A stretch of DNA of 51,833 bases from Halobacteriales archaeon QS_4_66_20 (GTDB lineage: Archaea; Halobacteriota; Halobacteria; Halobacteriales; Haloarculaceae), in assembly GCA_003021015.1 (NCBI GenBank), contig PXRK01000065.1, positions 1-51,833 on the forward strand, given 5' to 3'. The position numbers were made by a program, and so were the translations under genes. How positions within the stretch are numbered: position 1 is the stretch's first letter; every line of letters begins with the position of its first letter. Below are positions 883 through 48,598 of the stretch, in pieces. The notes under the pieces are model-generated. The model worked only from the letters and a program-made list of their open reading frames with translations, searched no databases and had not been told where the DNA came from.

Positions 883-992
883 AGTGATTGTTGTGAGTTT
901 TTTCGGCATTGCATCGCACTAACAGTAGTTTCACGGCCAGAAACTAGAGTTTGAGGAATGCCCAGCGGTAAAAATAGTCACGAACGACTGTA
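883..992. repeat. 110-bp MITE-like element with TGA/TGA target duplication, non-matching arms
   Basis: The direct repeat TGA flanks it at 880-882 and 993-995. The left end is TAGTGATTGTTGTGA and the right end, reverse-complemented, is TACAGTCGTTCGTGA. Only about 8 of 15 positions agree, so this copy is a hybrid of two arm types. Its core (TTTTCGGCA, the inner hairpin GTTTC..GAAAC, and AGCGGTAAA near the right end) is homologous to the copies at 6498, 24037 and 31554. The right arm runs into the 3' end of the 546-residue gene and supplies its last residues and stop codon. Confidence 0.85.
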
Positions 993-2618
993 TGACGGCT
1001 GGTCCGCTCCGTCGTCGCCGTCGCCTGCTACCTCGCCACTTCGCGACCGTCCACTTCCGTCCGTGTTCGCGCCGCCGTGATCGTCCTGCTCTGATTGTTC
1101 GCCAGTTCCCCCCTGGCTACCCGGTTCCCCGGAGTCACCCGTTTCCTCGTCCTTTCCAGTCGACGCGTGGGTCCCAGTCGATTCGGGCTGTTCGTCGGTC
1201 TCCTGTGGCGCTGTATCCTGCGGCTCGGCGTCCTCGTACCGGCGGACGAAGCCAGCGGAGGTGGCAGTCTCGCCGTCTACCTGGAGGTCCTCGCTCACGT
1301 CACCGCCGGCGACGTGTTCGTTCAACTGGTCGACGACCGACCGCATCCGGCCGATCCGGCCCTCGATAGCCGACGGATCACCGGCGTCGAACTCGGTCGC
1401 CAGTTCGTGGACGCGTTCGAGGTGGTCGACGGCCTTCGCGCAGTGATTCAGCGCGTTGGCGTCGTCGCCGGCTTCCTGGCAATCCGCTCCCGTGTTCCAC
1501 TCCCGTTTCGCGAGCTGTTCGCGGAGGGCGACGATCCGTTCCGCAGCGACGCGGCGGTCCCGCTGGACCTCGCGGGGGTCGCCCGCGAAGTTGCGGCCGT
1601 CGTCGTCCCACTCCAGAGTCAGCACATGGCCGTACCCCCAGAATGCGGTCTCCCAGCAGTCGAGTGCGGCCGAGGGGTCGTCCAGAAACTGTGCCTCGAT
1701 CTTCGCTTCGTGGGCCTGCCTGATCGGCTCCGCCGCGACGGTTTCGATCTCCCATCCGAGGTTTTCGAGGTCGTCCTGAAGCTCCCGCTGGGGGCCGAAC
1801 TGGAAGGCGTCGCTCCGCCTGACCGCGTCGCTGAGGTCGCGTGCGCTGTCGTAGAACTCCTGGGCCTCCCGCAGCTGGTCGCCCGCCCTGTCGTACTCCT
1901 CGTTCTCGATCAGGTGCCGGCCCATCGCCAGCGCCGCCTTCGCGCGCTCGATGTACAGCCGCGTGTGTGCCCGTTCGAGCTGGCGTTCCAGCGCCGTCAG
2001 CTCCGGCGCGAGCTCCTCGAACGTCACCGGTTCGACGAGCTGGACGTCGCAGATGAGCCGGTCGAGCTGTTCGCGGACCTCCTCGTAGCTGCGCCGCGCA
2101 CGCTGCCAGTCCAGCGCGTGGGCGTGCTCGCGGATCTCGCCGGTGGCCAGTTCGACGTTGTTTTCACAGCTGCGTGCGCGGCTCCGGAGGGCACCGAGCC
2201 AGTTCAGGTGACTTATTACCGTTTGAAATGCCGGTGAGCGATCCTCGGGGAGCGGAATCCGCCAGACGACGCCGCCAGTCGTGGTGAGCGACAGCTCCGT
2301 TCCCTCCCCGCTGACGCCTGCCAGATCGCTGTAGGTGAGCGAGTACGTGCCCGACGGGGGGCTGTCACCCCCGCGCGCGACGAACAGGATCCGCCGATCG
2401 GTCACTACCATCGCAACCTCGACGTCAACGCGCCGCTGTTCGTCCTCCTCGGCGCGCACGACGCCCTGCGGGCTCACCCAGACTGCCCTGGTCCGCTCGT
2501 CGTCCGCAGTCACCGACGGGAGGTCGATCGCGTCTTCCTCCCAGGACGACGTGACCACGTCTGGCTGGTCCGGCGGATCCTGATCACTCCCCGAGATGCT
2601 CGATCCCACCGAATACAT
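978..2618 (-). CDS. PH-like domain / coiled-coil protein of unknown function
   Basis: This 546-residue acidic protein has three parts. Residues about 35-140 contain strands typical of a bacterial PH-like (YokE/bPH) domain (VAMVVTDRRILFVARG, YSLTYSDLAGVSGEG, GVVWRIPLP). Residues about 145-430 are helical and charged, with TPR- or coiled-coil-like character (ALAMGRHLIENEEYDRAGDQ). Residues about 440-546 form a low-complexity tail rich in Asp, Glu, Gly, Ser and Thr. There is no signal peptide or membrane helix. A cytoplasmic scaffold role is possible but the function is unknown. The final residues YSRS and the TGA stop are encoded by the arm of the repeat at 883-992, so the native C-terminus has probably been replaced. 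The ATG at 2618 is preceded by AT-rich sequence. Confidence 0.85.
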   Translation of the reverse strand: MYSVGSSISGSDQDPPDQPDVVTSSWEEDAIDLPSVTADDERTRAVWVSPQGVVRAEEDEQRRVDVEVAMVVTDRRILFVARGGDSPPSGTYSLTYSDLAGVSGEGTELSLTTTGGVVWRIPLPEDRSPAFQTVISHLNWLGALRSRARSCENNVELATGEIREHAHALDWQRARRSYEEVREQLDRLICDVQLVEPVTFEELAPELTALERQLERAHTRLYIERAKAALAMGRHLIENEEYDRAGDQLREAQEFYDSARDLSDAVRRSDAFQFGPQRELQDDLENLGWEIETVAAEPIRQAHEAKIEAQFLDDPSAALDCWETAFWGYGHVLTLEWDDDGRNFAGDPREVQRDRRVAAERIVALREQLAKREWNTGADCQEAGDDANALNHCAKAVDHLERVHELATEFDAGDPSAIEGRIGRMRSVVDQLNEHVAGGDVSEDLQVDGETATSAGFVRRYEDAEPQDTAPQETDEQPESTGTHASTGKDEETGDSGEPGSQGGTGEQSEQDDHGGANTDGSGRSRSGEVAGDGDDGADQPSYSRS

Positions 2619-2709
2619 CTTTATAGAAGATAATAAATCACTCGCCAGTCCGAGAGATCCGTTCGCGACCGTTCCGGCCGGCAGAGTCGGCCGGCGACGA
2701 CGACCGCAC

Positions 2710-2717
2710 TTTTATAC
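2710..2717 (+). promoter_or_regulatory. TATA box of the thioesterase gene
   Basis: TTTTATAC is centred about 28 bp before the ATG at 2742, as expected for a leaderless transcript. Confidence 0.6.
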
Positions 2718-2741
2718 TTCACTCGTGCGAAAGATGGGCGT

Positions 2742-3179
2742 ATGCCGACGTTGCTCGATTCGAAAGCCGAAAGTCGTCGCCTCGTGTTGCCCGCCCAGGC
2801 GAACGCGATCAGGACGGCACACGGCGGGAACGTCCTCAAGTGGATGGAACAGACCGGATCGATGAGCGCGATGCACTTTTGCAGCGGCGAGGTCATCACC
2901 GCGGGGTTCGACCGAAGCCGCTTTCACAACCCGATCCCGGAGGGCGACATCGCCCTGATCGACGCGTACGTCTACGAGGTCGGGACCAGCAGCATGACGA
3001 TCCGTGTGCGCTGTTTCCACGAGAACCACAAAACCGGCGAGCGGAGCCTCACCTCCGACGCGAAGATGGTCAGCGTCGCCGTCGACGAGGACGGTCAGAG
3101 CGTCGACGTCCCGGACCTGAGCGTCGAGACCGAGGCGGGCAAGCGCCTGCAGGACGAGGCGCTCAACGCCGAGAACTAA
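2742..3179 (+). CDS. Acyl-CoA thioesterase, hotdog fold (YciA/ACOT-like)
   Basis: This 145-residue protein matches the single-hotdog acyl-CoA hydrolases that cleave acyl-CoA thioesters. The pattern is NAIRTAHGGNVLKWMEQTGSM (the hotdog helix with Gly-Gly and the following E), then ITAGFDRSRFHNPIPEGDIALIDAYV and SMTIRVRCFHEN (the next strands). Its length is normal for a one-domain member that acts as an oligomer in the cytoplasm. The start lies 26-28 bp after a clear TATA box. The gene converges on and overlaps its downstream neighbour by four bases, with the stop codons interlocked at 3176-3179. Confidence 0.88.
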   Translation: MPTLLDSKAESRRLVLPAQANAIRTAHGGNVLKWMEQTGSMSAMHFCSGEVITAGFDRSRFHNPIPEGDIALIDAYVYEVGTSSMTIRVRCFHENHKTGERSLTSDAKMVSVAVDEDGQSVDVPDLSVETEAGKRLQDEALNAEN

Positions 3180-3631
3180 AAGTCCGGGAGGTCCTCGGGC
3201 GCCTCGTAATCTGTCTCCCAGTCGACGTACTCCTCCTGTAGCACCTCACAGACGATCTGGCCGAACTCCGTCAGCGACGCGTTGATACTCGAGACTGTCC
3301 CCCAGGAGTCGATGTCCGGGTGGTACTCGCGCTCCTTCCAGTCCTCGGGGATGCCGGGTGCGTGATACCCCACGCGGTCGGCGTGGGAGTCCCAGAAGAA
3401 GTCGAACCCCTGGAACATCCCGAGGTCCGCCGCGATGGCGAACTCCTCCTCGTCCATCCCGGTTGTGGCCGCCCACTCGTCGAACGCCCGCTCCCAGGCG
3501 CCGTCCGCGAAGTGTTCTTCGATCTCCTCGCGCTTGTAGTCAGTGTCTCCGACCACGTCGGCGTCCTCGTACTCGTTCGGGTCGAACTCCTCGAGCTCCG
3601 GCGGCTCTGGCGTCTCGACGTCGAGTCCCAT
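3176..3631 (-). CDS. Conserved-looking haloarchaeal acidic protein, function unknown
   Basis: The protein has 151 residues and is very acidic. It begins MGLDVETPEPPELEEF and contains an aromatic-rich centre (MFQGFDFFWDSHADRVGYH) and a predicted helical C-terminal half (INASLTEFGQIVCEVLQEEYVDW). I recognise no catalytic motif. The ATG at 3631 is preferred over a GTG at 3649 because a TATA-like TTATT at about 3655-3665 lies roughly 29 bp upstream of 3631 but only 12 bp from 3649. Convergent overlap with the thioesterase gene indicates compact, genuine gene ends on both strands. Confidence 0.75.
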   Translation of the reverse strand: MGLDVETPEPPELEEFDPNEYEDADVVGDTDYKREEIEEHFADGAWERAFDEWAATTGMDEEEFAIAADLGMFQGFDFFWDSHADRVGYHAPGIPEDWKEREYHPDIDSWGTVSSINASLTEFGQIVCEVLQEEYVDWETDYEAPEDLPDF

Positions 3632-3709
3632 AGCCACAGCTTCGGCCACCGCACGAATAAGTCTATCCGGCGCCCTCTGCCGTCCGCGAGGCGATCCAGG
3701 TGGCGGTCA

Positions 3710-3738
3710 TACTGGTAAAAGAATTACAGCCACCAGTA
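3710..3738. repeat. 29-bp internally deleted copy of the TACTGG element, TCA duplication
   Basis: TCA flanks it at 3707-3709 and 3739-3741. The left 7 bases TACTGGT are joined directly to the right end AAAAGAATTACAGCC..., so about 80 bp of core are missing compared with the 108-bp copy at 11095. The full copy carries a second ACTGGT near its right end, so the deletion fits recombination between short repeats. The right-hand TCA is the stop codon (TGA on the minus strand) of the ligase gene. Confidence 0.85.
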
Positions 3739-5388
3739 TCAGGAGTGAAGCCGCTCGACGCGCTCCCGGGAGTCCGCATCTCCGGGGTTTTTGTCGTCCC
3801 GGACGCCGAGAAAGCGCGGGAACCGGAGTGCGTACCCCGATCCGTAGGTCGGCGAGGACTGGATCTCCTCGTACCCCACCTCGAACACGACGGCGGGCTC
3901 GATGTCGACCGCTGTCCCCGTCTCCGTCCGGACGTGTGGCTCCAGCAGGTCCGTCAGTTCCTCGAGTTCCTCGTCGGTGATCCCGGTCGCGACCTTGCCG
4001 ATCGATTCGAACCCGCCATCGCCGTCCCGGACGGAGAGTTCGAAGGTTCCGAGCAGGTTCGCGCGCCGCCCCTCGCCCCACTCGGCCCCGGTGACCACGC
4101 AGTCCAGCGTCTCGACGTCGGGCTTGCGCTTCAGCCAGTTCTGCCCACGATTGCCCGGCGTGTACGCCGATTCGGGGTTTTTCAGCATGATCCCCTCGTG
4201 GCCCGCATCCAGCGCTTGTTGCTCGATCGACGCGATCTCCTCCGGTTCGTCGCTCAACCGCAGCCGCGACACCAGCTCCTCGCTCTCCAGCAACGCAGCA
4301 AGGCGGTCGTGCCGCCCGACGAGCGGCCGTTCCAGCAGGTCCTCGCCGTCGGCGTGCAGACAGTCGAACACGTGAAACTCCAGCTTGACGTTCTCCCTGG
4401 CCTTCGCGACGTCGTGTTTGCGCCGGAACCGGCGCAACACCGCCTGGAACGGCCGGGGGTCGCCCGACTCGTCGACGGCGACCACCTCGCCGTCGAGGAT
4501 AGCTGGGGCGTCCAGTGCCGCCGAGAGCGCGTCGACGACCTCGGGCAGCGGCGCCGTCACGTCCTCCATGTTGCGGGAGAACAGCCGGACCTCGTCGCCG
4601 TCGTAGTGGGCCTGGACGCGCGCGCCGTCGAACTTCCACTCGACGGCCACCTCCGGCCAGTCGTCGAGCGCGTCGGTCACCGTCCCGGTCTGTGCCAGCA
4701 TCACCTGCACAGGGCGGCCGACCTCAAGCGTCATCTCATCGAGCGCGGCCGCGCCGCCGTCCCGCGTGCGCTCGGCCACGAGGCCGTAGTCGTTTGACAC
4801 CTGGAGCGCGCGCTCGACCGACGCCACAGGGGCGTCGAACGCGTCGGCGATGGCGTCCCGGACGGTGCCCTCGCCGACGCCGATCCGTAGCTCCGAGAGG
4901 ACGAGTCGCGAGAGATACCGGGCCTGGACAGTGTCACAGCGGTTGAACAGGCCGAACAGGAGATCGAGCTTCGTCTCCCGGCTGCCGTCGCCGGACGCTG
5001 CCGCGAGCTCCCGCAGCGTCGCGTCCAGTTCAGCCACCGTCAGCGCGTCGCTGTCGCCGTCAGTGAACGCTCCGAGTCCCTGCTGCCCGCCGAGGTCGTA
5101 GCTCGCCGCCACCTCGCCGACGTCCCCGTGTTCGGCCAGGCGGTCCTCGACGTCTGCCGCGGAGACGTTCGGTCCCGCCACTCGTGCGATCGCCTCGTGA
5201 CAAAGCTGTGGTCCGACGTCGAGGGTCCGGGAGTCGTGGGCCGGGAACACGCGCCCGAGCAGAAAGCGCACGACAGTCGACAGCTCCGAGGCGTCCCGGA
5301 ACAGATCGGCAACCTCGTCCTGGATCTCGAGGTCCGCGTCGGTCGCCTCGATCTCCGCGAACCGACCGGCGAGTATCCGGAACTCCAT
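3739..5388 (-). CDS. lig: ATP-dependent DNA ligase (archaeal type)
   Basis: The 549-residue length and domain order are typical of archaeal ATP-dependent ligases, which seal nicks between Okazaki fragments and after repair. The N-terminal DNA-binding domain (about 1-215) ends in LGVGEGTV-like helices (SELRIGVGEGTVRDAIADAF). The adenylation domain carries the lysine motif WKFDGARVQ near residue 250 (the Lys is adenylylated), followed by RLFSRN, ILDGEVVAVDE and EGIMLKNPESAY. The C-terminal OB-fold domain includes LKRKPDVETLDCVVTGAEWG and the late motif ALRFPRFLGVRDDK. All nucleotidyl-transferase motifs I can check are present. The stop codon is the TCA/TGA duplicated by the repeat insertion at 3710, so the protein end is preserved. 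Confidence 0.97.
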   Translation of the reverse strand: MEFRILAGRFAEIEATDADLEIQDEVADLFRDASELSTVVRFLLGRVFPAHDSRTLDVGPQLCHEAIARVAGPNVSAADVEDRLAEHGDVGEVAASYDLGGQQGLGAFTDGDSDALTVAELDATLRELAAASGDGSRETKLDLLFGLFNRCDTVQARYLSRLVLSELRIGVGEGTVRDAIADAFDAPVASVERALQVSNDYGLVAERTRDGGAAALDEMTLEVGRPVQVMLAQTGTVTDALDDWPEVAVEWKFDGARVQAHYDGDEVRLFSRNMEDVTAPLPEVVDALSAALDAPAILDGEVVAVDESGDPRPFQAVLRRFRRKHDVAKARENVKLEFHVFDCLHADGEDLLERPLVGRHDRLAALLESEELVSRLRLSDEPEEIASIEQQALDAGHEGIMLKNPESAYTPGNRGQNWLKRKPDVETLDCVVTGAEWGEGRRANLLGTFELSVRDGDGGFESIGKVATGITDEELEELTDLLEPHVRTETGTAVDIEPAVVFEVGYEEIQSSPTYGSGYALRFPRFLGVRDDKNPGDADSRERVERLHS

Positions 5389-5441
5389 ATCCGTGGTTCT
5401 CGCCGCCCGGAGAAGAATCCGACGGTGTGGACGGGCGATGT

Positions 5442-6470
5442 TTACAGCGACCGCACGGCGTCCATCGCGTCGTCGAGCGACGGCGCGTCGAACACCTCGC
5501 GGCCTACGTAGGCGTTCGTTCCGGCGCAGTACATGTCACGGGCGACCTCAATCACGGACTCGTCGAGCGGTTCCGGCTGGTGCTCGCACAGCGACTTCCA
5601 GTCGGCGACGCCCTCCGCCTTCGCGCGCTCCTTCGCCGCACTGACGGCCTCGACCCACTCGGGCTGGGTCCGCTTGTGGTACTGTCGGATGACCTCCTTC
5701 GAGAGCTGCTGGCCTCCGTAGGCAAAGCGGCTCTCGTCGAACGTGCCGACGACGTCGGCGACCCGGATCTCGCCATCGACGTATAGACACTCGATCTTGC
5801 CGTCCTGGTTGGTCAGCCCCGCCTCGGCGGCCTGCTCGGTGACGATCCGATTCACCTCGCGGGCGCGATCCGCGAGCGCCCCGATCGATGCCTGTCCTGC
5901 GATTTCGTCGGCCTCCGCGCGCGAGAGGTACCGGTCCTGCTCCTCGTACTTCGTGGAGAACTCCACCACCGTCTCCGGGAGGTCAACGGGTTCGTCGGGC
6001 CAGGAGTCGCGGTCGAGGCCGTGATCGGTCGGCGCGGACCGCTTGCGCAGCGACGACCCGACCGGGACCCGGTTGCGGAACACGATCTCCAGCGGGATCA
6101 GGTAGTTCGACCCGGCGGCCCCGTGGTAGGCGTCGTAATCGTAGCTCCCCGCCTCGAACGGCAGGTCGGGCACCTGCGTCAGGTCGATCGCCATCTCGCG
6201 GGGCGCGTGGCCGTCCGCGAGCGCGGCGTCGAGTGACTGCTCCTCGCCGTCGACGACGACGCCGCGGTAGTGGGTAGGCACCCCGGCGTCTTCGAGCAAC
6301 TCGAAGTTGAACGCGCCCATCGTACACAGTGACGCGCCCTTGTCCGGGATCTCGTCGGGCATCTTCCCCCAGTCGAACACCGAGTAGTCGTCGGTGAACG
6401 CGAAGGCGCCACGGCCGAGCGCGTCGGCCATCGCCGCCGCCGCGACCCTGAAGTTCTTGACGCTCGTCAT
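5442..6470 (-). CDS. purC: Phosphoribosylaminoimidazole-succinocarboxamide synthase
   Basis: This SAICAR synthetase joins CAIR and aspartate with ATP in step 8 of de novo purine synthesis. The N-terminus has the family signature ([26 protein letters not shown], giving the [10 protein letters not shown] nucleotide-binding hairpin). [20 protein letters not shown] and [27 protein letters not shown] carry the substrate-binding residues. At 342 residues it is longer than bacterial PurC (about 240), as usual for the haloarchaeal form. The ATG at 6470 lies just below a truncated palindromic repeat (6498-6572) that now occupies most of its upstream region, so the repeat may influence its expression. 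Confidence 0.95.
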
Positions 6471-6497
6471 CGGCTGCCCATTCCGGGCCCGTGCTAA

Positions 6498-6572
6498 TAG
6501 TGATTGTTGTGATTATTTTCGGCACCATGTCGCAATAGCGGCGGTTTCACGGCTCGAAACTGGCGTCTGAGG
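6498..6572. repeat. Truncated TAGTGATTGTT-arm element (left 75 bp)
   Basis: The left end TAGTGATTGTTGTGATTATT follows TAA (6495-6497, candidate target). The core includes the inner hairpin GTTTCACGGCTCGAAAC. It aligns closely with the copy at 883 and with the reverse complement of the copy at 24037, which has different arms. It stops at GAGG directly before the stop codon of the exchanger gene, so the right third is lost. Confidence 0.8.
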
Positions 6573-9599: not shown

Positions 9600-9635
9600 T
9601 CGGCAGTCCCCCATCCGGTCCGTCCCGGTGTTTGT

Positions 9636-9668
9636 ATTCGAGTTTTCACGTACGTACAGCCACCAGTA
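9636..9668. repeat. Right-end fragment of the TACTGG element
   Basis: The fragment ATTCGAGTTTTCACGTACGT followed by ACAGCCACCAGTA is the right 33 bp of the element at 20587 (there AATTCGAGTTTTCACGTACTT...). The remaining 75 bp are missing. It lies between cofH and the 67-residue membrane protein gene, close to where that gene's promoter should be. Confidence 0.75.
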
Positions 9669-9897: not shown

Positions 9898-9936
9898 GTA
9901 CGAACACTCCTCCACAGAGTCACGTCCGGGTGTATA

Positions 9937-11033: not shown

Positions 11034-11609
11034 TTATTCTCCACTCTCAGCCCGTTTCGGGGGATTACCGAGCGTTGTCACCGAGACTACCTGATACTGG
11101 TGGCTGTACGTACGTGAACACTCGAAGTGAGAATCCAGGCGGAACGGGTCTGTCTCCGCAGAGAGCAGAGACTGGTAAATAAAAGAATTACAGCCACCAG
11201 TATGAGTGCCGGCCGCAGTCTCCAGCCTGACCTCGTCGCGAATCGACTCCGGGAGCGCCGCGCGCCACTCCTCGACGGCCGCGGCGTGACGCTCGCGGTG
11301 GCGCTCGACGGTGTACTCGACATCCGGGTCCGCCCGGAGTTCGTCCTCCGTGTCGGCAGGTCGTGGAACTGGCGGTGCGTCGTCCGCCAGCAGGCGCTCG
11401 GGCGAGACGTGCAGCGGTGCTGGTTCGTCGCTGTACTCCTCGCCCTGGTCGACGTGCAGGCGCGCCCGCATCCGGCCGCTAAACGGCGGCGTGATCCGGA
11501 GCACTGCCTCCCTGGAGGTCGTCCGGTTCATCTCGACGGCAGCGACCACGTCCTCGACAGTGACGGCGATCGCGTCGATCACGCTCGGGTCGGACGAGTC
11601 CGGTGTCAC
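11034..11609 (-). CDS. Haloarchaeal hypothetical protein with a 37-codon in-frame repeat insertion
   Basis: The protein has 191 residues. Residues 1-134 form an acidic domain (MTPDSSDPSVIDAIAVTVED, VLRITPPFSGRMRARLHV, ERHRERHAAAVEEWRAALPE, IRDEVRLETAAGT) of unknown function. The 108-bp element plus its 3-bp duplication add 111 bp without a stop, encoding HTGGCNSFIYQSLL... to SRTYSHQYQ. The native C-terminus QVVSVTTLGNPPKRAESGE then resumes in frame. Removing element and duplication restores ...LETAAGTQVVSVTTLGN..., a smooth sequence of about 154 residues. The inserted part adds Cys, aromatic and basic residues unlike the acidic host protein. Confidence 0.75.
   Translation of the reverse strand: MTPDSSDPSVIDAIAVTVEDVVAAVEMNRTTSREAVLRITPPFSGRMRARLHVDQGEEYSDEPAPLHVSPERLLADDAPPVPRPADTEDELRADPDVEYTVERHRERHAAAVEEWRAALPESIRDEVRLETAAGTHTGGCNSFIYQSLLSAETDPFRLDSHFECSRTYSHQYQVVSVTTLGNPPKRAESGE
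11095..11202. repeat. 108-bp TACTGGTGGCTGTA element, TGA/TGA duplication, inside a coding sequence
   Basis: TGA flanks it at 11092-11094 and 11203-11205. The perfect 14-bp terminal inverted repeats are TACTGGTGGCTGTA and TACAGCCACCAGTA. It is a sister of the copy at 20587, which has the same length of 108 bp in opposite orientation. Its length plus the duplication is 111 bp, so the reading frame of the gene at 11034-11609 is kept. Confidence 0.92.
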
Positions 11610-11728: not shown

Positions 11729-11808
11729 TAGTGATTATTGTGAGTCTTTCCGGGATCGACCGCGCGACTGCGTGCGGTCGACCCGGTAAACAGTCACAAT
11801 AATCACTA
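11729..11808. repeat. 80-bp TAGTGATTATTGTGA element, TGA/TGA duplication
   Basis: TGA flanks it at 11726-11728 and 11809-11811. The terminal inverted repeats TAGTGATTATTGTGA are perfect. It is shorter than its relatives: the core is reduced to a strong hairpin, GGATCGACCGC pairing with GCGGTCGACCC, so the whole element can fold as one long stem. It lies between the start of the hypothetical gene at 11609 and the HalX regulator. Confidence 0.92.
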
Positions 11809-11811
11809 TGA

Positions 11812-17510: not shown

Positions 17511-17619
17511 TACACCCGGACGTGATTCGGTTAGGCCATGCCGTCCCAAATCCCGTTGTTCGCGGTATGACACAGCCGATGGACTGTCCTGGCACTGTCC
17601 GGAGTCACGTCTGGCTGTA
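17511..17619. repeat. 109-bp palindromic element, TACAGCCAGACGTGA group
   Basis: The ends are TACACCCGGACGTGATTCGG and, reverse-complemented, TACAGCCAGACGTGACTCCG. The arms match at about 12 of 15 positions. In reverse orientation it aligns over its whole length with the copy at 40076 (shared GTGCCAGGACAGTCCATCG and CGGGATTTGGGACGGCATGG). The flanks CTA and CAC show no duplication, so it may be older. It lies between the 39-residue gene and argS, upstream of both. Confidence 0.85.
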
Positions 17620-19668: not shown

Positions 19669-19692
19669 GGGGTGGGGTCCGGGATTGGGACG

Positions 19693-20586
19693 ATGCTGGA
19701 CGACCTGCTCGGTCGGACGGAGCTCAAGCGGGAGATCGAGGCACTCGAGGGGGAGGTCGAGCGCCTCGAGGAACAGCTCGAAGCCGAGGAGGCGCGCCGG
19801 GCCGACGCCGTCACCGAGCGCCAGGCGGCCCAGCGCCGGGCCAACAAGCTCGAAGACAGGGTCACGCAGCTCGAAGACCAGGTCGAGCGGCTCCAGGACG
19901 GCGAGACGACCCTCTCGTATCACCGCGAGACCGACCTCAATGGCCGGGACCTCGACGCGGTGCTCGCCAGGCTCGAATCCGTCGAAACTGGTCCCCAGGG
20001 TGCGCTGTCGGCCTACGTCGCCGACGGCCACGACCGGCCGGCGGAGCTCCGGGAGGCGTTCGGCGAGCGCGCGGCGCTGGTCTCAAGGGCCGCGCCCTGT
20101 CTGGCGCTGGGCGACGACGAATCTCTCGTCTCGGTCTGTCTCCGCCCCCCCGTCGCGCCCGACCCCTTCGTCGAATGGGGCGACGGGTTCCGGATCGAAC
20201 GCGAGTGGTTCCAGCCTCGCGGCCGGTACACGCTCGCGCTGGTCCGCTCTGACCTGTTCGCGATGGGCACCTACCAGGGCGACGAGCGAACTGCCTTCCA
20301 CGGGTTCGACAGCGACCTCAAGAGCCAACACTCCAAGGGCGGCTTCTCGCAGGCCCGCTTCGAGCGACTCCGGGACGAACAGATCGACGAGCACCTGGAT
20401 CGGTGTGTAGCCGCGCTTGAGAAACGGGAGACCGACCGCCTCTACGTCGTCGGCGAACGGTCCGTGCTCGGCGAGATGATGCACATCGCTGACGCCACCG
20501 GTGCCGTCGACGCCACCGGCGATCCCGAGGACGCCCTCCGGGACGCCTGGGAGTCGTTCTGGACCGTCCAGTTGTGGGTATTGTAA
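19693..20586 (+). CDS. Vms1-like release factor (VLRF1/baeRF-type peptidyl-tRNA hydrolase)
   Basis: The 297-residue protein starts with a coiled coil (about 1-75, LKREIEALEGEVERLEEQLE and QRRANKLEDRVTQLEDQVER). An eRF1-domain-2-like fold follows (about 80-297). The diagnostic catalytic loop is SKGGFSQARFERLRDEQ near residues 212-226, where GGxSQ replaces the GGQ of eRF1. Strands VLRF-type FRIEREWFQPRGRYTLALV and RLYVVGERSVLGEM complete the domain. By analogy with Vms1/ANKZF1 it should release nascent chains from stalled 50S-peptidyl-tRNA complexes. The TAA stop is exactly the 3-bp target of the repeat inserted at 20587. Confidence 0.82.
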   Translation: MLDDLLGRTELKREIEALEGEVERLEEQLEAEEARRADAVTERQAAQRRANKLEDRVTQLEDQVERLQDGETTLSYHRETDLNGRDLDAVLARLESVETGPQGALSAYVADGHDRPAELREAFGERAALVSRAAPCLALGDDESLVSVCLRPPVAPDPFVEWGDGFRIEREWFQPRGRYTLALVRSDLFAMGTYQGDERTAFHGFDSDLKSQHSKGGFSQARFERLRDEQIDEHLDRCVAALEKRETDRLYVVGERSVLGEMMHIADATGAVDATGDPEDALRDAWESFWTVQLWVL

Positions 20587-20694
20587 TACTGGTGGCTGTA
20601 ATTCTTTTACTCACCAGTCTCTGCTATCTGAAGATACAGACCCGTTCCGCCTGGATTCTCAATTCGAGTTTTCACGTACTTACAGCCACCAGTA
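20587..20694. repeat. 108-bp TACTGGTGGCTGTA element, TAA/TAA duplication at a stop codon
   Basis: TAA flanks it at 20584-20586 (the VLRF1-type gene's stop) and 20695-20697. The terminal repeats TACTGGTGGCTGTA are perfect. It has the same length and core as the copy at 11095 in opposite orientation (shared CAGACCCGTTCCGCCTGGAT), and lies between two convergent genes. Confidence 0.93.
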
Positions 20695-24036: not shown

Positions 24037-24145
24037 TACGGTCGTGCGTGACTCTTTACCGCTATAGAGTCACGCATTGGGCGTTTCAGACCGCGAAACC
24101 GCCGATATTGGGACCCGGTGCTGAAAATAATCACGCACGACCGTA
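24037..24145. repeat. 109-bp TACGGTCGTGCGTGA element, TCA/TCA duplication
   Basis: TCA flanks it at 24034-24036 and 24146-24148. The arms TACGGTCGTGCGTGA are perfect. The reverse complement aligns with the copy at 6498 from GTGATTATTTTC through CGGCGGTTTC...GAAAC, although the outer 11 bp differ completely. A second internal stem, GTGACTCT with AGAGTCAC, folds one end on itself. It begins 9 bp after the stop codon of the aIF2-beta gene. Confidence 0.93.
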
Positions 24146-31259: not shown

Positions 31260-31553
31260 ATGCACCGCCGCATCCTCGACGTCACGTCGTACACGACGCT
31301 GGATTACGTCGAGACGAGCCTGCTGGGCCCGGACTGGACGGCGCGCTCGCCCGCGGTGCTCGACGTGAGCACGCCCGACGAGAACGAGGACCTCGATCCG
31401 GCGACGGTCACGCTCTCGCTGGAGGTCGACCCCGTCGACGCGACCGACGGCGAGCGGCGCGCGACCCGGGTCGAACTGACGCCCGCGCAGGCGCGAACGA
31501 TTGCAGATGATCTCGAATCGACGGCCGACGAGGTCGAGTCAGCGAACGACTGA
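31260..31553 (+). CDS. Small protein coupled to nirA, unknown function
   Basis: The 97-residue acidic protein (MHRRILDVTSYTTLDYVETS, then LDPATVTLSLEVDP, RATRVELTPAQARTIADDLE) is predicted to be alpha/beta without membrane helices, cysteines or catalytic motifs. It starts two bases after the nirA stop, so it is almost certainly co-transcribed and probably linked to nitrite reduction or its control. Its TGA stop at 31551-31553 is the target duplicated by the repeat at 31554. Confidence 0.75.
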   Translation: MHRRILDVTSYTTLDYVETSLLGPDWTARSPAVLDVSTPDENEDLDPATVTLSLEVDPVDATDGERRATRVELTPAQARTIADDLESTADEVESAND

Positions 31554-31662
31554 TAGTGATTAGTGCGATTATTTTTGTGCCCACGTCACGTGAACGGTTA
31601 GTTCGCGGGCTGACGCACACGAATTGTGACTCCTTGGCGGTAAAGAGTCGCACTAATCACTA
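31554..31662. repeat. 109-bp TAGTGATTAGTGCGA element, TGA/TGA duplication at a stop codon
   Basis: TGA flanks it at 31551-31553 (stop of the nirA-linked gene) and 31663-31665. The arms TAGTGATTAGTGCGA are perfect. The core aligns with the reverse complement of the copy at 24037 (GTTCGCGG.CTGA and AGCGGTAAAGAGTC-like right end), although the arms differ. The left edge TGATAGTGA reads three stop codons in a row in frame with the host gene. Confidence 0.93.
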
Positions 31663-36401: not shown

Positions 36402-36421
36402 TACGGTCGTGCGTGAGTATT
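36402..36421. repeat. Orphan left end of a TACGGTCGTGCGTGA element
   Basis: TCA (36399-36401) is followed by TACGGTCGTGCGTGAGTATT, the arm and first core bases of the 24037-type element. The matching right end is absent. The sequence passes into the 33-bp tandem repeat instead. Confidence 0.75.
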
Positions 36422-36487
36422 TTCAAGCTGGTGTGGTAGCTCATACTGCCGGACTTCAAGCTGGTGTGGTAGCTCATACTGCCGGAC
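36422..36487. repeat. 33-bp unit repeated twice in tandem, ending in an element-like arm
   Basis: The unit TTCAAGCTGGTGTGGTAGCT followed by CATACTGCCGGAC is present twice without a mismatch (36422-36454 and 36455-36487). In the second copy TCA (36474-36476) precedes TACTGCCGGACGTGATTCCG, which resembles the arm TACACCCGGACGTGATTCGG of the element at 17511. The tract thus looks like a rearranged nest of two element ends. It lies between rps19e and the ABC operon. Confidence 0.75.
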
Positions 36488-36549
36488 GTGATTCCGTTCC
36501 CACCCGGATAGCGCTCAGCAGCTGAGACAACCGAAAACGCCGCCGGCGG

Positions 36550-40075: not shown

Positions 40076-40184
40076 TACAGCCAGACGTGACTTCGTACAG
40101 TGCCAGGACAGTCCATCGACTGTGTCATGGCCCGAACATCGGGATTTGGGACGGCATGGCTTAGCTTAATCACGTCTGGCTGTA
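40076..40184. repeat. 109-bp TACAGCCAGACGTGA element
   Basis: The arms TACAGCCAGACGTGA are near-perfect (the right end reverse-complements to TACAGCCAGACGTGATTAAG). It aligns over its full length with the reverse of the copy at 17511. No clean target duplication is seen (ATA and TAA flanks). It ends 12 bp before the start codon of the serine hydrolase gene, so that gene's promoter must lie inside the element or have been displaced by it. Confidence 0.9.
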
Positions 40185-42723: not shown

Positions 42724-43461
42724 TTAGCGCCGCCGGAGGAACAGCGTCGCGGCCCCCGCGAGAGCCGCAATCGCGGCGACGATCCCGAATCCGGGACCGA
42801 GGCCGTCGTCGGCATCCGTCCCGCCGCTCGCCCCCTCCGGGATGGTCACTCGCAGGTCAGCGCCGTCGCCGTCGGCCGCCTCGGCTCCTTCCTCGGCACG
42901 CACCGTGACCGTTGCGGTGTCGGTGCCGCCGGGGCCGGTGACCAGCAACTCGACGCTGTACTCCCCCGGCTCGTCGTACGTGTGGGTGACGGTGTCGCCG
43001 TTCAGGCTGGTGCCGTCGCCCAGGTCCCAGCCGTAGCGGTCGATCGAACCACCCGACGAGTTCGCCCGGAGCGTGATCTGACCGTCCTCGGCCTTCCCGT
43101 CGATGGAGACCGAGGGCGGGGAGGCCTCCTCGACGACGACAGTCCGCCGGGTCGTGTTCTCGCCGGCGATCCCGATGACGGTCACGTTCACGACGTACTC
43201 GCCCGGTTCGTCGTACGTGTGGCTTGCCGTCGGGCCGACAGCCGTCGTGCCGTCGTCGAACTCCCACCGGTACCCCTCGATCAGTTCGGCCGGCGCGTCG
43301 GTGGCTGCCTCGAACGCCAGTTCCGTGCCGACCTCCGGCCCCGCTTGGGGCTCATCGACCGACACATTGGCGGCGGGTAGCGGGTCGTCGGCGTCCTCGA
43401 CGACGATCACCGTCTCGGTGGCAGTGTCGTTCCCTGCCGGCCCGGAGACGGTGAAGATGTG
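42724..43461 (-). pseudogene. 5'-truncated PKD-domain surface protein with C-terminal anchor
   Basis: The frame encodes the end of one PKD domain (IFTVSGPAGNDTATETVIVV), two full PKD domains (each with WEFDDGT or WDLGDGT and HTYDEPGEY), a polar linker and the C-terminal sorting signal GLGPGFGIVAAIAALAGAAT with LFLRRR. The last part resembles PGF-CTERM or archaeosortase tails that anchor cell-surface proteins. At about 43461 the homologous sequence stops abruptly, and the frame meets TAA about 35 bp further. No signal peptide or start codon is available, apart from an internal GTG at 43410. It is therefore a truncated remnant. Confidence 0.7.
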
Positions 43462-43741
43462 GGAAATAAATTCTTTGTGCCGATCGAAGCGTTTTTAAGC
43501 TCCGCGTGAGAAAGATCTGATACGATGAGGTGCAACGCCCCGTCCGTCGGGCGCGCGGTTTCGATTATTGCCCCGTCCGGGGCATAGCAACATCTCCTTC
43601 TCCGTGGCAGTAATCCCGGCCAGTGACGGCTGTACCCACTGTTGTTGGTGATCGGGATTTTCGCGCGCGCCACGAATACGGAACACGATCCATCGGACCG
43701 CTTGCCAGCTACAGGTATGAAATAATACAGACAACAACAGC
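43462..43741 (+). other. ileS upstream region with two related hairpins
   Basis: GTTTTTAAGC (about 43488-43497) is a good TATA box on the plus strand, implying a leader of about 220 nt before ileS. In the leader, CGCCC..GGGCG (43536-43553) and TGCCCCGTCCGGGGCA (43569-43584) form two hairpins that share GCCCCGTCCG. No protein is encoded. A structured leader, a small RNA, or scar sequence from the event that truncated the PKD gene are all possible. Confidence 0.4.
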
Positions 43742-46700
43742 ATGACACTACCGGATCACTACGACCCGGACGACGTCGAACAGTACGCCAAACGACACTG
43801 GAACGAGGTCGACGCCTACGAGCACGTCACATCCGAAAACGCGGACGGCGAGCCGTTCTACTTCGTGGACGGCCCGCCGAACACGAGCGGCGACATGCAC
43901 TGCGGGACCGCCTGGGGGAAGGTACTGAAAGACGCCTTCCTGCGGTACTACCGGATGCAGGGCCGTGACGTCGTGGCCCGGCCGGGCTACGACACCCACG
44001 GGCTGCCCGTCGAGCGGCGGCTGGAAGCCGACCTCGGCTTCGAGAGCAAGGCCGACGTCCACGAGTACGGCGTCGAGAACTTCGTCGAGGCCTGCCGGGA
44101 GTTCGTCGCTGAGAACCGCCGCGGGATGGACGCGGAGTTCGCCGACCTCGGCGTCTGGATGGACTGGGACGACCCCTACCGGACGATGGACGCCGAGTAC
44201 GTGGAGACGGCCTGGACCGCCTTCCGCGAACTGTACGACCGGGGGCTGCTCGCCCGCGAGAAACGGGTCGTCAACACCTGTCCCGACTGCGAGACGTCAG
44301 TCGCCGAAACCCGTCTCTCCTACGAGACTCGCGAGGCGACTGCGGCGTACGTGGGCTTCCCGCTCCGCGAGCGGGAGGGCTGGCTGCTGGCCTGGACGAC
44401 GACGCCGTGGACGGTCACCGGCAACCAGTTCGTCGCCGTCGACCCCGAGGCGACGTACGCTTCCGTCTCCGTGGACGGTGACCTGCTCTACGTCGCCGAG
44501 GACTGCGTCGACGGAGTGGCCGACGCCGTCACAGGGGAATCCGTTGCGAGGGAGGCCGTCGCGGAGGAATCCGTCGCGGGGGAGGCCGCCGCGGGGGAAT
44601 CCGTCGCGGGGGAGGCCGTCGACGGGGACGCCAAAGTCGAGGTCGTCGACCGGTTCGACGGCGAGGACCTCGTCGGCTGGAGGTACGACAACCCGCTTGC
44701 GGCCCACCTGCCCGCGGACTCGCCGGTGCTCGGCGGCGAGGTGGCGAGCGCGGACTACGTCGACCTGGAACAGACTGGTCTCGTCCACTCCGCGCCCGGC
44801 TACGGTGCCGAGGACTTCGAACGCGGACAGGAACTCGACCTGGACGGGTACGCGCCGCTGGAGGAGAGCGGCACCCTCACCGACGGCGCCGGCGAGTACG
44901 CGGGCCTCGACGTCGAGGACGCCGTCGAAGCAGTGCTGACTGACCTCGACGACGCGGGCGCACTGTTCGCCACGGAGACGCACACCCACGAGTACCCGCA
45001 GTGTCCCCGCTGCGATGCCGAGGTGCGGTACCGCGCCACCGAGCAGTGGGTCGTGGCGGTCACCGAGTTCAAGGAGGACCTGCTCGACGCCGTCGGCGAC
45101 ACCACCTGGTACCCGGCTGGAGCGCGGGAGAACCGCTTCCGGCCGATGGTCGCGGACGCGCCGGACTGGAACCTCTCGCGCCAGCGCTACTGGGGCACCC
45201 CCGTCCCGGTGTGGGTCTGCCAGGACTGTAGCGAGGACGTCGTCGTCGAGGACGCGGCGGACCTCGCCGAGAAAGCGGGTCTCGACAGTCCGCCGGCGGA
45301 CCTCCACCGGCCGAGCGTGGACGATCTGACCGTCACGTGTCCGGACTGCGGCGGGAGCGCCCGGCGCGAGGCGGACGTGCTCGACGTGTGGTTCGACTCG
45401 GCGGTCGCCTCGTGGGCGTCTGCCCGCGTACGCCCGCCCGAGACGCCCGAGTACTGGCCGGCGGACCTCGTGGTCGAGGGTCACGACCAGACGCGCGGCT
45501 GGTTCCTGATGCAGCTGTACCTCGGCGTCGTCTTCGGCGGTCGCGCGCCCTACGAGGAGGTGCTGATGCACGGGTTCGCCAAGCTCGACGGCGAGGCGAT
45601 GTCGAAGTCGCGGGGCCACGTGCTCCGGCCGCCGACTGTCGTCGAGCAACACGGCCGCGACCCGCTGCGGGCGCAGTTGCTCTCACACAACCCCACGAAG
45701 GATGTCACCCTCACGAGCGGGATGGACGGCGTCGCCGACTTAGAGGACAAGCTGGACGTGGTCTGGAACGTCTACCGCTTCGCGTTGCTGTACATGGACC
45801 TCGACGACTACGAACCCGTTCCCGAAGTTCGGTCGAGCGCGGACGAGCGCACGGTGCTGGACGGCTGGGTACTCTCGCGCCTGCAGGCGACCGTCGCCGA
45901 GGTGAACGCCGCGATGGACGAGGACCGCCGGACGGACCGGGCGCTCGCTGCCGCCCTCGAGTTCCTCGTCGAAGACGTCTCGCGGTACTACGTCAAGACC
46001 GCCCGCGACCGGGTCTGGGAGGGCGAGGAGGGGGCGTACGACGCCCTCGGAACGGTGCTGTGCGAGAGCGCGAAACTGCTCGCACCCTTTGTCCCCTTCC
46101 TCGCCGAACGGCTGTACGACGCGCTCGACCAGCCCGAGATGACGGTCCACGCTGCCGACTTTCCGGAGGCGGACCCCGACCTCCGCGACGAGGACCTGGA
46201 GGCCGTCGTCGAGCGTCTGCGTGGCGTCGAGGAGGCGGCCGCGACCGCACGGCAGCGCGCCGGCCGCAAGCGGCGCTGGCCGGTCGCCGAGGTGGTCGTC
46301 GAGACCGACGACGAGCGACTGTGGGCGGCGGTCCGCGAACACCGCGAGCTGTTCGAACAGCGACTCAACGCCGAGGACGTCGTCGCGACCCGCTCCTGCG
46401 ACCGCCTCGTCGAGACGCCCGACCCGCGGATGGACGAACTCGGCCCCGCGTTCGGCGAGCAGGCCCACGACGTCGCCGCGGCCGTCCGCCAGGCGAACGT
46501 CACCGAGTTCCCCGCGACGGTGACCGTCGACGGCGAGGAAGTCACCGTGGCGCCGGAGATGGTCGACGTCCGACGAGAGACGCCCGAGTCCGTCGAGGCC
46601 GAATCCGTCGAGTACGGCACTGTCTACGTGGACGCGACGCTGACGACCAGCCTGAAGCGCGAGGGCGTCTACCGCGACCTGCTCCGGCGCGCCCAGGAAC

Positions 46701-46918
46701 TCCGGGACGACCTCGACGTGGCGATGGACGAGGAGGTCGTCCTCGCTGTCGACACGGACGACACCCTCGTCAGGGAGGCGCTGGAGCAGTACCGCGAGGA
46801 ACTCCGCGCCGAGGTGCGCGCCGAGCGCGTCGTCGATGACACCGGCGACGCCGACGTGACCCTCGAGTGGTCCGCCGACGGCGCCTCCGTAGAGGTCGGC
46901 GCCCGGCGTGCCGGCTGA
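43742..46918 (+). CDS. ileS: Isoleucyl-tRNA synthetase
   Basis: The 1058-residue class I enzyme charges tRNA-Ile. The HIGH-type motif is PPNTSGDMHCGTAWGKVLKD (about 42-61, with HCGT). The CP1 editing domain contains GWLLAWTTTPWTVTGNQFVA and HSAPGYGAEDFERG. The catalytic domain continues WNLSRQRYWGTPVPVWVCQD, the zinc-like CPDCGGS, and the KMSKS loop KLDGEAMSKSRGHVLRP (about 619). An anticodon domain and an acidic C-terminal extension complete it. An unusual 30-residue insert within the editing region (about residues 265-294) is encoded by three 30-bp repeats. ATG 43742 gives MTLPDHYDPDDVEQYAKRHW. Confidence 0.97.
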   Translation: MTLPDHYDPDDVEQYAKRHWNEVDAYEHVTSENADGEPFYFVDGPPNTSGDMHCGTAWGKVLKDAFLRYYRMQGRDVVARPGYDTHGLPVERRLEADLGFESKADVHEYGVENFVEACREFVAENRRGMDAEFADLGVWMDWDDPYRTMDAEYVETAWTAFRELYDRGLLAREKRVVNTCPDCETSVAETRLSYETREATAAYVGFPLREREGWLLAWTTTPWTVTGNQFVAVDPEATYASVSVDGDLLYVAEDCVDGVADAVTGESVAREAVAEESVAGEAAAGESVAGEAVDGDAKVEVVDRFDGEDLVGWRYDNPLAAHLPADSPVLGGEVASADYVDLEQTGLVHSAPGYGAEDFERGQELDLDGYAPLEESGTLTDGAGEYAGLDVEDAVEAVLTDLDDAGALFATETHTHEYPQCPRCDAEVRYRATEQWVVAVTEFKEDLLDAVGDTTWYPAGARENRFRPMVADAPDWNLSRQRYWGTPVPVWVCQDCSEDVVVEDAADLAEKAGLDSPPADLHRPSVDDLTVTCPDCGGSARREADVLDVWFDSAVASWASARVRPPETPEYWPADLVVEGHDQTRGWFLMQLYLGVVFGGRAPYEEVLMHGFAKLDGEAMSKSRGHVLRPPTVVEQHGRDPLRAQLLSHNPTKDVTLTSGMDGVADLEDKLDVVWNVYRFALLYMDLDDYEPVPEVRSSADERTVLDGWVLSRLQATVAEVNAAMDEDRRTDRALAAALEFLVEDVSRYYVKTARDRVWEGEEGAYDALGTVLCESAKLLAPFVPFLAERLYDALDQPEMTVHAADFPEADPDLRDEDLEAVVERLRGVEEAAATARQRAGRKRRWPVAEVVVETDDERLWAAVREHRELFEQRLNAEDVVATRSCDRLVETPDPRMDELGPAFGEQAHDVAAAVRQANVTEFPATVTVDGEEVTVAPEMVDVRRETPESVEAESVEYGTVYVDATLTTSLKREGVYRDLLRRAQELRDDLDVAMDEEVVLAVDTDDTLVREALEQYREELRAEVRAERVVDDTGDADVTLEWSADGASVEVGARRAG
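44534..44623 (+). repeat. Coding minisatellite: three 30-bp units inside ileS
   Basis: Three consecutive 30-bp units (44534-44563, 44564-44593, 44594-44623) share about 85-90% identity, with the pattern GGGGAATCCGTCGCG then GGGGAGGCCGYCG. They encode GESVAREAVA, EESVAGEAAA and GESVAGEAVD. The insert lies in a loop of the editing domain and keeps the frame. Confidence 0.9.
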
Positions 46919-46936
46919 GCCGGCAGCCACTGGCGA

Positions 46937-48427
46937 TCAGTACTTGTGGTTTTCCGGCGCGAGGTCGATCGCGTCGTAGAACGCCGCGTCGAGTTCGTTC
47001 CGGGCGTTGCGCCAGGACTTGAACCCGCCCCTGGTGGCGGGGTAGTCGCCGTACAGCCCCTCGAACCGGTCGGCGTACCCCTTCGTTTCGCGGAACCCCA
47101 TCATCGCCTCGTACAGTTCCTCCCGCGAGACGCCGAGGTCCTCGAAGGTGCCTTTCCGGTACTCGCTCCAGAGATTGCGGACGACGCCGAGGGCGACCGA
47201 AAGCTTCGTCGTCAGGTCGTCGATGGCCGTCTCGGTGCCGACGATCTCCTTGAGCTGCTCCTCGGGCAGCAGCGCCGCGATCGCGCGCAGGATCGGGACG
47301 TCGATGCTGCTGGCGGCCACGTTGAACGGATCGCTGGCTGCGAGTTTCGTTCCGGTGCCGTGCTCGACGTAGAGGTAGTGGTTGTGACCCCACAGGCCAG
47401 CCTCGGAGACGTCGCCAGCGGCCACCGCTTCGGCAGCGTGTTTCCCGGCCGAATAGCCGGAGATCGCGGCCCCACGGATCCCCTTCCCCGAGATGGGATG
47501 GGTCGTCGCGGCCGCGCCACCCGCCGCGAGGTAGCCCGGCGCGACCATCGAGTCCAGCGGCCGGCGGAGCGCGAGCGCCGCGCCCAGCTTGTTCTTCTTG
47601 TCGAACTTCTCGTCCAGGCGGGCGTTGCGGTACTCCGGGCGGTTCTCGATGTCCTTGCGGAGCCGGTCGGCCAGCGGGATCGGCTCCTTGTTCATCTGGA
47701 ACCCCAGCCCGACGTTGATCGTGGTCGGCGACCGCGGGAAGTACCAGATGTACCCCATCTCCTCTAAGGGTTTGCCCACGATGGCGTTCCGGTACTCGAC
47801 CGGCTCCCCGACCTCGATGATCTCCCGGTAGGCCGAGCCGAAGTGGGTGTAGTGGGGCATCTCGAAGGTGGTCGGCTCGTCGTCCCCGAGCGACTCGAAC
47901 TCGATCATGTCCTGAAGGATCGACTGTGCCCCGGCGGCGTCGATAACCACGTCGCCGCGGTAGGTGACCGGCTCGCCGCCGGTCGTCGCGGTCACGCCCT
48001 CGACGGCACCGTTCTGGACGACGCCGTTGACGACCGTGTCGTAGCGCTGCTCGACGCCGCGGTCGGCGGCCTGCTGGAGCAGCCGCTGGCCGAACTCGTA
48101 GCGGTCGATCACGTTGCTGTTGCCGGCGTAGGGCAGCACCTTCCGGACGTCCAGATCCTCGTCCCACCACTCGATCTGGTCGATGTTGCCGTCGATGCGG
48201 ACCGCCTCGTCGTCCGCGATCTCGTCCATGTCGATCGGTCCCGGATACTTCCCGGGGTCCCGCGGGCTCTTCATCGCGTCGCCGCAGGCGATGAACCCGC
48301 CCTGCTCGCGGGGTTTGCGCTCCAGCTGCACCACCTCGGCCCCCCCGGCGGCGGCCGTCGCCGCGGCGAAACAGCCGGCGACGCCGCCCCCGACCACGAC
48401 CACCTCGTACTCCTCTGTCCTGGACAT
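46937..48427 (-). CDS. Geranylgeranyl-reductase-family FAD-dependent oxidoreductase
   Basis: The 496-residue flavoprotein begins with an FAD-binding GxGxxG motif (YEVVVVGGGVAGCFAAATAA, about 7-26) and LERKPREQGGFIACGDAM, typical of digeranylgeranylglycerophospholipid reductases, which saturate archaeal lipid chains. Further blocks are GDVVIDAAGAQSILQD, YIWYFPRSPTTINVGLGF and YLAAGGAAATTHPISGKGIR (the late FAD/NAD block). Its C-terminal half is longer than that of the core lipid reductase, so it may act on another prenyl group such as menaquinone or a carotenoid. The start at 48427 gives MSRTEEYEVVVV; the longer frame is discarded. Confidence 0.87.
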   Translation of the reverse strand: MSRTEEYEVVVVGGGVAGCFAAATAAAGGAEVVQLERKPREQGGFIACGDAMKSPRDPGKYPGPIDMDEIADDEAVRIDGNIDQIEWWDEDLDVRKVLPYAGNSNVIDRYEFGQRLLQQAADRGVEQRYDTVVNGVVQNGAVEGVTATTGGEPVTYRGDVVIDAAGAQSILQDMIEFESLGDDEPTTFEMPHYTHFGSAYREIIEVGEPVEYRNAIVGKPLEEMGYIWYFPRSPTTINVGLGFQMNKEPIPLADRLRKDIENRPEYRNARLDEKFDKKNKLGAALALRRPLDSMVAPGYLAAGGAAATTHPISGKGIRGAAISGYSAGKHAAEAVAAGDVSEAGLWGHNHYLYVEHGTGTKLAASDPFNVAASSIDVPILRAIAALLPEEQLKEIVGTETAIDDLTTKLSVALGVVRNLWSEYRKGTFEDLGVSREELYEAMMGFRETKGYADRFEGLYGDYPATRGGFKSWRNARNELDAAFYDAIDLAPENHKY

Positions 48428-48485
48428 TGCTGGCGTTGATTGCTCTACGTAGGGAGAAGGGAAACGTAACTCTTTGGAGTTGGGA

Positions 48486-48598
48486 TATCCACTCCGACGT
48501 GACTCTGTTACACGCCACGACAGTATCGCTGGGGTTTCAGGCCGCGACACTACTGTTCTGTGAGGGCAGGTCGTAACTGAATCACGTCTGAGTGGATA
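48486..48598. repeat. 113-bp TATCCACTCCGACGTGA element
   Basis: The arms TATCCACTC(C/A)GACGTGA match at 16 of 17 positions. The core (GCCACGACAGTATCG) is related to that of the copies at 17511 and 40076 (GCCAGGACAGTCCATCG), so it is the same lineage with changed arms. The flanks GGA and CGA match at two of three bases. It lies in the divergent interval between the flavoprotein gene and the ribose-1,5-bisphosphate isomerase gene, upstream of both. Confidence 0.9.

Follow-up and report, generated by a model that had tools for sequence, protein, structure and literature searches.

Short palindromic elements in a haloarchaeal contig and their probable kinship with IS630-family elements that duplicate TNA

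A stretch of 51,833 nucleotides from Halobacteriales archaeon QS_4_66_20 (here, the window), which is contig C65 of genome G000, is crowded with short palindromic elements, raising the question of which transposase moves them. The elements have the properties of miniature inverted-repeat transposable elements (MITEs): a length of 80 to 113 bp, terminal inverted repeats, many copies, and no transposase gene. They very probably belong with haloarchaeal IS630 elements, of which two groups, A and B, duplicate TNA at targets resembling CTNAG and a third, group C, duplicates TA. The 3-bp IS630 branch and the link between tip and duplication are new; MITEs themselves have long been known. Genome G000 comprises 86 contigs with 2.89 Mb at 89% completeness and appears to derive from the genus Halovenus. 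The nearest relative compared is G006, taken as the metagenome-assembled genome Halobacteriales archaeon SW_10_66_29.

Nine full copies lie in the window where the earlier note placed them, only the start of the first moving from 883 to 882. Six belong to the TNA class. Copy a (882..992, 111 bp) is flanked by TGA/TGA and is a hybrid with the tips TAGTGATTGTTGTG and TACAGTCGTTCGTG, which mismatch at 7 of 14 positions. Copies b (11095..11202, 108 bp, TGA/TGA) and e (20587..20694, TAA/TAA) are of the tip type CTGGTG. Copy c (11729..11808, TGA/TGA) forms a near-perfect hairpin of 80 bp, an architecture also found in other genera. Copy f (24037..24145, 109 bp) shows the type CGGTCGT between TCA repeats, and copy g (31554..31662) shows TAGTGATTAGTGCG between TGA repeats. 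A remnant of type b with an internal deletion (3710..3738, 29 bp) is flanked by TCA/TCA, which completes the seven TNA duplications claimed at first reading (TGA for a, b, c, and g; TCA for f and the remnant; TAA for e). The description as transposase-free, MITE-like elements with TNA duplications is borne out. The copies do not form one family, there being nine end types in two duplication classes, most of which duplicate TNA. Copies d (17511..17619, tips TACACCC and TACAGCC, left flank TA, right flank CA) and h (40076..40184, 109 bp, type ACAGCCAG, TA/TA) belong to the TA class by tip type, their types duplicating TA, not TNA. Copy i (48488..48596, tips TCCACTCCGACG and TCCACTCAGACG, TA/TA) is placed there by its flanks and probably duplicates TA, these flanks appearing only with the ends set at TCCACTC and GAGTGGA.

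The same two classes run through the genome. Inverted pairs found without a flank rule number 118; equal 3-base flanks occur in 75 of them and are TNA in 74. After removal of shared ends, 73 perfect TNA copies remain (38 TGA, 30 TCA, 4 TAA, and 1 TTA). G or C occupies the middle position in 68 of these, and the target is CTNAG-like, with C at position -1 in 51 and G at position +3 in 43. A scan with nine tip types yields 126 copies in the G000 sample, which consists of 11 contigs with 839,057 bases (29% of the assembly, window included), and 48 copies in G006; the 24 and 9 copies, respectively, that fall into neither flank class are excluded from the ratios. Seven tip types (CTGGTG, GTGATTAT, GTGATTG, CTGATTG, CGGTCGT, CTGCCGG, and CTGTCGG) show 82 TNA and 4 TA duplications in G000, and the ACAGCC and ACACCC tips show 15 TA and 1 TNA. 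The corresponding ratios in G006 are 31 TNA to 1 TA for TNA-type tips and 0 TNA to 7 TA for TA-type tips. Tip type thus tracks the duplication class, with Fisher p values of 2e-13 for G000 and 5e-7 for G006 computed over non-independent copies. Across the whole genome, loci of type b have equal TNA flanks in 24 of 30 cases, one of the 30 being misread near a contig end.

Comparison of filled and empty sites shows that the elements are mobile. Both flanks allow the placement of 15 of 91 elements from G000 and 13 of 48 elements from relatives, the latter taken from G006 contigs and from loci of SW_10 and SW_7. At five sites, one of the genomes G000 and G006 carries an element that the other lacks, and four of the vacant sites show a single TNA. 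In G006, C17:54509 is empty, and in G000, g44:757 and g157:13153 are; each of these vacant sites has a single TGA or TCA. Inspection shows C74:25433 to be empty in G006 as well, the automatic gap amounting to 89 since another element comes next, and g100:19784 is empty in G000, where the site reads CGA. The earlier note had held that a lack of empty sites in orthologous genomes would speak against transposition; such sites do exist. The fifteen placed elements of G000 include seven shared ones, some with inner differences, as well as two replaced, two cleanly absent, three ambiguous, and one with an inner piece deleted in the relative. At C67:58869-58977 and C67:59406-59514, about 430 bp apart, the TNA and flanks are kept while G006 carries a different element (comparison with L124), which looks like in-place replacement. 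Furthermore, at g157:9143 in G006 a TA-class element lies within a type b copy; G000 lacks this inner element (C47:37096) and has a single TA there.

TA-class elements nested in type b copies also occur at L061 to L066 and L072 (G000 contigs C50, C17, C27, C28, C32, C47, and C23). All sit at one position, between CTGCTA and TATCTGC, giving composites of ∼218 bp, some of which were internally deleted later, and at least three different inner tip types are found at this single site. At L017 (G006:C142), ∼600 bp comprising a type f element with the flanks TCA and TGA and other sequence is missing from the G000 orthologue.

The probable partner elements are found in relatives. A search for insertion sequences (ISs) whose ends match the arm types, proposed as a check in the earlier note, leads to IS630-family ends for copies a, b, c, e, f, and g. 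The right end of copy g matched plasmids of Natribaculum breve, which contain three copies of an IS of 1,122 bp with boundaries set by mutual comparison and the flanks TGA/TGA, TGA/TCA, and TCA/TCA. This IS carries open reading frames (ORFs) with helix-turn-helix (HTH) and DDE_3 domains, and the copies of group A that were read contain two ORFs. ORF2 of the Natribaculum IS matches PF13358 with an E value of 1.7e-34. The IS630 model NF033545 gives 103.8 bits for ORF1, above the cut-off of 100, and 82.9 bits for ORF2, below it. PF13358 is present in groups A, B, and C, and the identity to ORF2 of group A is 37% for two members of group B and 36 to 37% for two members of group C.

The flanks of these elements reproduce the two classes. 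The group A element of Halovenus salina has equal TNA in all six copies, four of them independent, and TNA is also found in Halorubrum ezzemoulense, Natrarchaeobaculum, and Halocatena; in Natrinema gelatinilyticum and Natronococcus, the two flanks disagree at the central base. Group A as a whole shows equal TNA flanks in 9 of 12 independent copies, and in the other three the mismatch is confined to the central base. TNA is seen in 4 of 4 cases in group B (Haloarcula sinaiiensis twice, Natribaculum luteum, and Halorubrum salinarum), and TA in 5 of 6 in group C (ISNpe3, ISNma7, and four more). These counts leave out L269, L282, L275, and L288, with unclear IS ends; L298, with TA flanks and an unclear group; and the duplicate loci L268 (identical to L278) and L281 (identical to L280).

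The ends of copies a, b, c, e, f, and g correspond to those of the ISs. The right end of copy g is identical at 23 of 26 positions to the Natribaculum IS630-family end, the right end of copy c at 21 of 26 to IS630-family ends, and the left end of copy f at 19 of 26 to the Natronococcus IS end. One end of type b resembles the left end of group B and the other the right end, with none of 300 shuffles as good. For copies a, b, c, e, f, and g, shuffled window ends are as good as the real ones in 0 or 1 of 300 cases. The Halovenus salina ends, which started one base too far out in this comparison, are not among the best matches. Halovenus salina itself holds both the group A element and two MITEs of 109 bp with the tips TAGTGATTAGTGCGG, flanked by TCA/TCA and TGA/TGA, that resemble copy g of the window. 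A contig start (L060) was considered as an IS end and dropped, the shared stretch being only 32 bp.

Several points weigh against this assignment. Four copies in G000 and one in G006 with TNA-type tips sit in TA, one copy with TA-type tips sits in TNA, and the flanks of 3 of the 12 group A copies disagree at the middle base. Copies d and h match IS630 ends weakly (shuffles as good in 1 and 12 of 300 for d and in 1 and 28 of 300 for h), and the ends of copy i match no IS630 end above chance, about half or more of 300 shuffles being as good. Groups B and C were compared as proteins for two members each, the rest being assigned by tips. The flank rule served as a filter in choosing the boundaries of single-copy ISs, a procedure that favors TNA or TA; the Natribaculum and Halovenus salina elements are exempt from this. 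G000, G006, G017, G008, and G012 yielded no IS630 gene, so that the partner is known from relatives only, and the MITE-rich G041 (Halapricum hydrolyticum) gave no match to the group A protein, PF13358 not having been searched there. Within the genus, 12 of 18 genomes, G000, G006, and G017 among them, have no PF13358 match; this absence was at one stage counted as evidence against IS630, a reading since overturned. The assemblies are incomplete and presumably prone to losing repeated elements, and the source element has probably been lost from G000 or left unassembled.

A source in the IS5 family, as suggested in the earlier note, is not upheld. IS5 elements of the IS1031 type duplicate TNA, and PF01609 is found in 7 of 7 related genomes searched, in 6 of them above the cut-off, which would suit MITEs of an IS1031-like subgroup. 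This origin is nevertheless highly improbable. PF13586 occurs in 0 of 6 genomes searched, and a scan of 31 of the 43 PF01609 matches in 8 genomes, covering up to 1.5 kb per side, shows no element of 0.6 to 2.6 kb with these tips; two of the scanned loci have unrelated tips and TA flanks. G000 holds one decayed PF01609 (IS4/IS5-like) remnant at C40:59509-59988 (L059), which lacks such tips, and it is the IS630-family ends that match these MITEs instead.

IS630/Tc1/mariner elements are described as inserting at TA and duplicating it in the parts of PMC2170065 and PMC8533490 used here, with the TATA of Sailor as a noted exception (PMC8533490). A 3-bp branch would therefore be a real exception. 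According to the sections of PMC2170065 used, ISY100 transposes exclusively into TA with a 2-bp stagger, and 34 of 39 products in vitro show the normal TA duplication, none being described there as TNA. ISY100 resembles the haloarchaeal elements in its DDE-type transposase with an HTH N terminus, its short length, and its inverted-repeat ends; it differs in its TA target, compared with TNA in groups A and B, and from group A also in the two ORFs of the latter. Sailor DD82E is likewise a branch of IS630/Tc1/mariner with an unusual target duplication, but this is TATA and not TNA, and the corresponding text of PMC8533490 assigns TA to the entire group. ISNpe3 from Natrinema and ISNma7 from Natrialba are haloarchaeal elements annotated as IS630, 36 to 37% identical to ORF2 of group A, that differ in their TA duplication and TAGTA tips. 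Groups A and B agree with IS630 in the protein models and depart from it in the target, TNA in place of TA; they are IS630-like by protein and a variant by target.

Among small elements, Stowaway-type MITEs are likewise MITEs of IS630/Tc1/mariner elements, differing in that they are eukaryotic and have TA duplications. REPIN/RAYT sequences are not known to make a target duplication, in contrast to the 3-bp duplications found here. SMR-A of Haloquadratum walsbyi, as described in the excerpts of PMC3119063 used, measures ∼110 bp, with inverted repeats, as many as 54 copies, and no transposase; it is said to make no such duplication and to lie within elements of the IS605 type, and one SMR-B family has 80 bp. 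By description only, SMR-A is similar to the present elements in size, inverted repeats, copy number, and the lack of a transposase, and is set apart by the absence of a duplication, compared with TNA or TA here. Literature searches in open-licence PMC papers, made without ISfinder, brought up no work on TNA-duplicating IS630 elements or on this MITE swarm.

The proposed mechanism starts with a transposase that would pair both tips and excise the element. The excised element would then be joined at a T-N-A site with a 3-bp stagger (2 bp for TA), and repair would double the TNA. Judged from sequence, the transposases of groups A and B are the likely agents of this movement. The empty sites, the duplications, the CTNAG preference, and the ends common with IS630-family elements having both transposase parts are all observed.

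The relation of tips to cores leads one step further. As a rule, a copy has matching tips, although tip sequences vary among copies with similar cores, and the inner flanks are asymmetric. Among 21 copies found by an exact core pattern only, 20 have tips that differ at no more than 3 of 14 positions, and their left tips come in 7 different sequences; one further copy is cut by a contig end. Among 138 core-found copies of G000, 104 have tips with at most 3 mismatches, compared with 28 under random pairing, a comparison inflated by the fact that 89 of the 138 were pre-chosen for matching tips; 15 of the other 49 match. The copies C67:4051 and C67:87838 have cores that are 91% alike, both tips changed, and the duplications TA and TTA, respectively. 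Four copies are hybrids that combine two tip types between equal TNA flanks (copy a, C54:43839, C47:31559, and C23:112799). Together, the hybrids and this pair suggest tip exchange. One may tentatively suppose, with the chances slightly below even, that two haloarchaeal IS630/Tc1/mariner lineages cut with a 3-bp stagger at CTNAG, thereby duplicating TNA, and that MITEs swapping their matched 14-bp tips around a conserved core switch between 2-bp (TA) and 3-bp (TNA) transposases.

The hybrids, the two C67 sites with a different element in G006, and the pair with altered tips on a 91%-alike core also fit a less probable alternative, in which the tips are equalized by intramolecular template switching within the hairpin or by gene conversion between copies and not by separate transposases. 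The asymmetry of the inner flanks would be unexpected if whole stems were corrected. Template switching or conversion is compatible with the IS630 assignment, as a route for tip exchange.

Selection of the hairpin itself, as RNA or single-stranded DNA structure of the REP or attC kind with mobility being secondary, is very unlikely. Eight of the nine window copies do fold better than shuffles (z scores of -3.3 to -11.1; copy a, -1.25). Loci of Halapricum hydrolyticum and Halosimplex found by a half-element are exactly 80 bp in 12 of 20 cases, the other 8 being on the opposite strand and misread. An alignment of 22 elements of 80 bp from Halapricum desulfuricans, Halapricum hydrolyticum, Halosimplex, SW_10, SW_7, and the window shows 98.6% complementarity in the outer 14 pairs, a value biased upwards because the rows chosen had no more than 4 mismatches among the 14 tip positions. 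In the same pre-chosen rows, covariation across genera is seen in these outer 14 bp, with changes on both sides in 9 pairs, a level reached by 0 of 500 shuffles. This covariation ends at base 14: the next 13 pairs are 57.5% complementary and show no excess. Matched tips are thus maintained while the inner flanks remain different. Arm mismatches show no G-U preference (21 GT and 27 AC), so that an RNA wobble signal is absent, and Rfam gives no match in the window at gathering scores. Finally, direct TNA repeats and empty sites require transposition.

Natural 3-bp groups beside a related TA group would offer direct access to what determines the length of the stagger and the choice of target. MITE tips track the 2-bp or 3-bp class, in at least one instance on related cores, and thus amount to a natural mutant series.

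Many insertions lie at the ends of genes. Among the 73 TNA copies, the duplicated triplet coincides with the stop codon of a neighboring gene in 26, the genes being predicted by a codon-usage script with rough calls. For copies with TGA or TCA, 23 of 68 lie on a predicted stop, compared with 11.5% of intergenic TSA triplets, or 13.0% when weighted for the CTNAG context (binomial p of 1e-6 raw and 8e-6 weighted, with related copies being non-independent). In the window, the left TAA of copy e is the stop of the predicted gene 19672-20586, the left TGA of copy g is that of 31260-31553, and the remnant 3710-3738 adjoins the stop of 3739-5388. This excess could mean that the transposase prefers such targets or that the insertions serve 3' end formation, in place of mere survivorship, which is rather doubtful: the gene calls are home-made, related copies are not independent, and 47 of the 73 TNA copies lie away from stops. 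Harmful insertions are lost, moreover, and a TGA duplication keeps the protein intact.

The abundance of the elements is considerable. The G000 sample contains 216 element regions with 20,348 bases, 2.4% of the DNA or one per 3.9 kb. The density of about one per 4 kb reported for the window therefore stands and is typical of G000; extrapolated to the entire assembly, it would correspond to ∼740 regions. Inverted 14-mer pairs of the element form occur 8 times in the window and once in total in 20 first-order Markov windows, and the type b tip (at most 1 mismatch) occurs 133 times in the genome, compared with 2 for the reversed pattern; these low counts exclude chance. With about one MITE per 4 kb, often at stop codons, the genus offers a model for archaeal MITE load. 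A plasmid of Halorubrum salinarum contains a 108-bp MITE of the same architecture flanked by TCA/TCA (L264:2420-2527), and the family therefore extends into Haloferacaceae.

Searches beyond chromosomes gave little. Four patterns searched in IMG/VR give 22 matches, none of which combines a matching partner end with equal TNA flanks; they are taken as chance. Phage records contain no match for copy f, the sole copy searched. Plasmid records contain none for copy b and 2, 20, 2, and 4 records for f, c, h, and g, mostly chance. Larger elements of 0.5 to 3.5 kb with these tips amount to 30 pairs in the sampled DNA, mostly borrowing the end of a nearby MITE. Two of the 30 have no MITE partner at either end; a single short gene, inspected by eye, is predicted in each of them, with 75 codons in one and 95 in the other.

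The window also contains fragments, those near 6498, 9637, 36402, and 36476 reported before being genuine. They comprise 6498..6572 with a TAGTGATTG tip, 9615..9668 with a type b end, and 36402..36425 and 36476..36541 with CGGTCGT and CTGCCGG tips, respectively, each preceded by TCA. A fragment with a TACACCC-type end at 9913..9936 is added. Apart from these elements, 15-bp tandem repeats lie at 44522-44646 within a class I tRNA synthetase gene of 1058 codons (43742-46918, assigned by Pfam).

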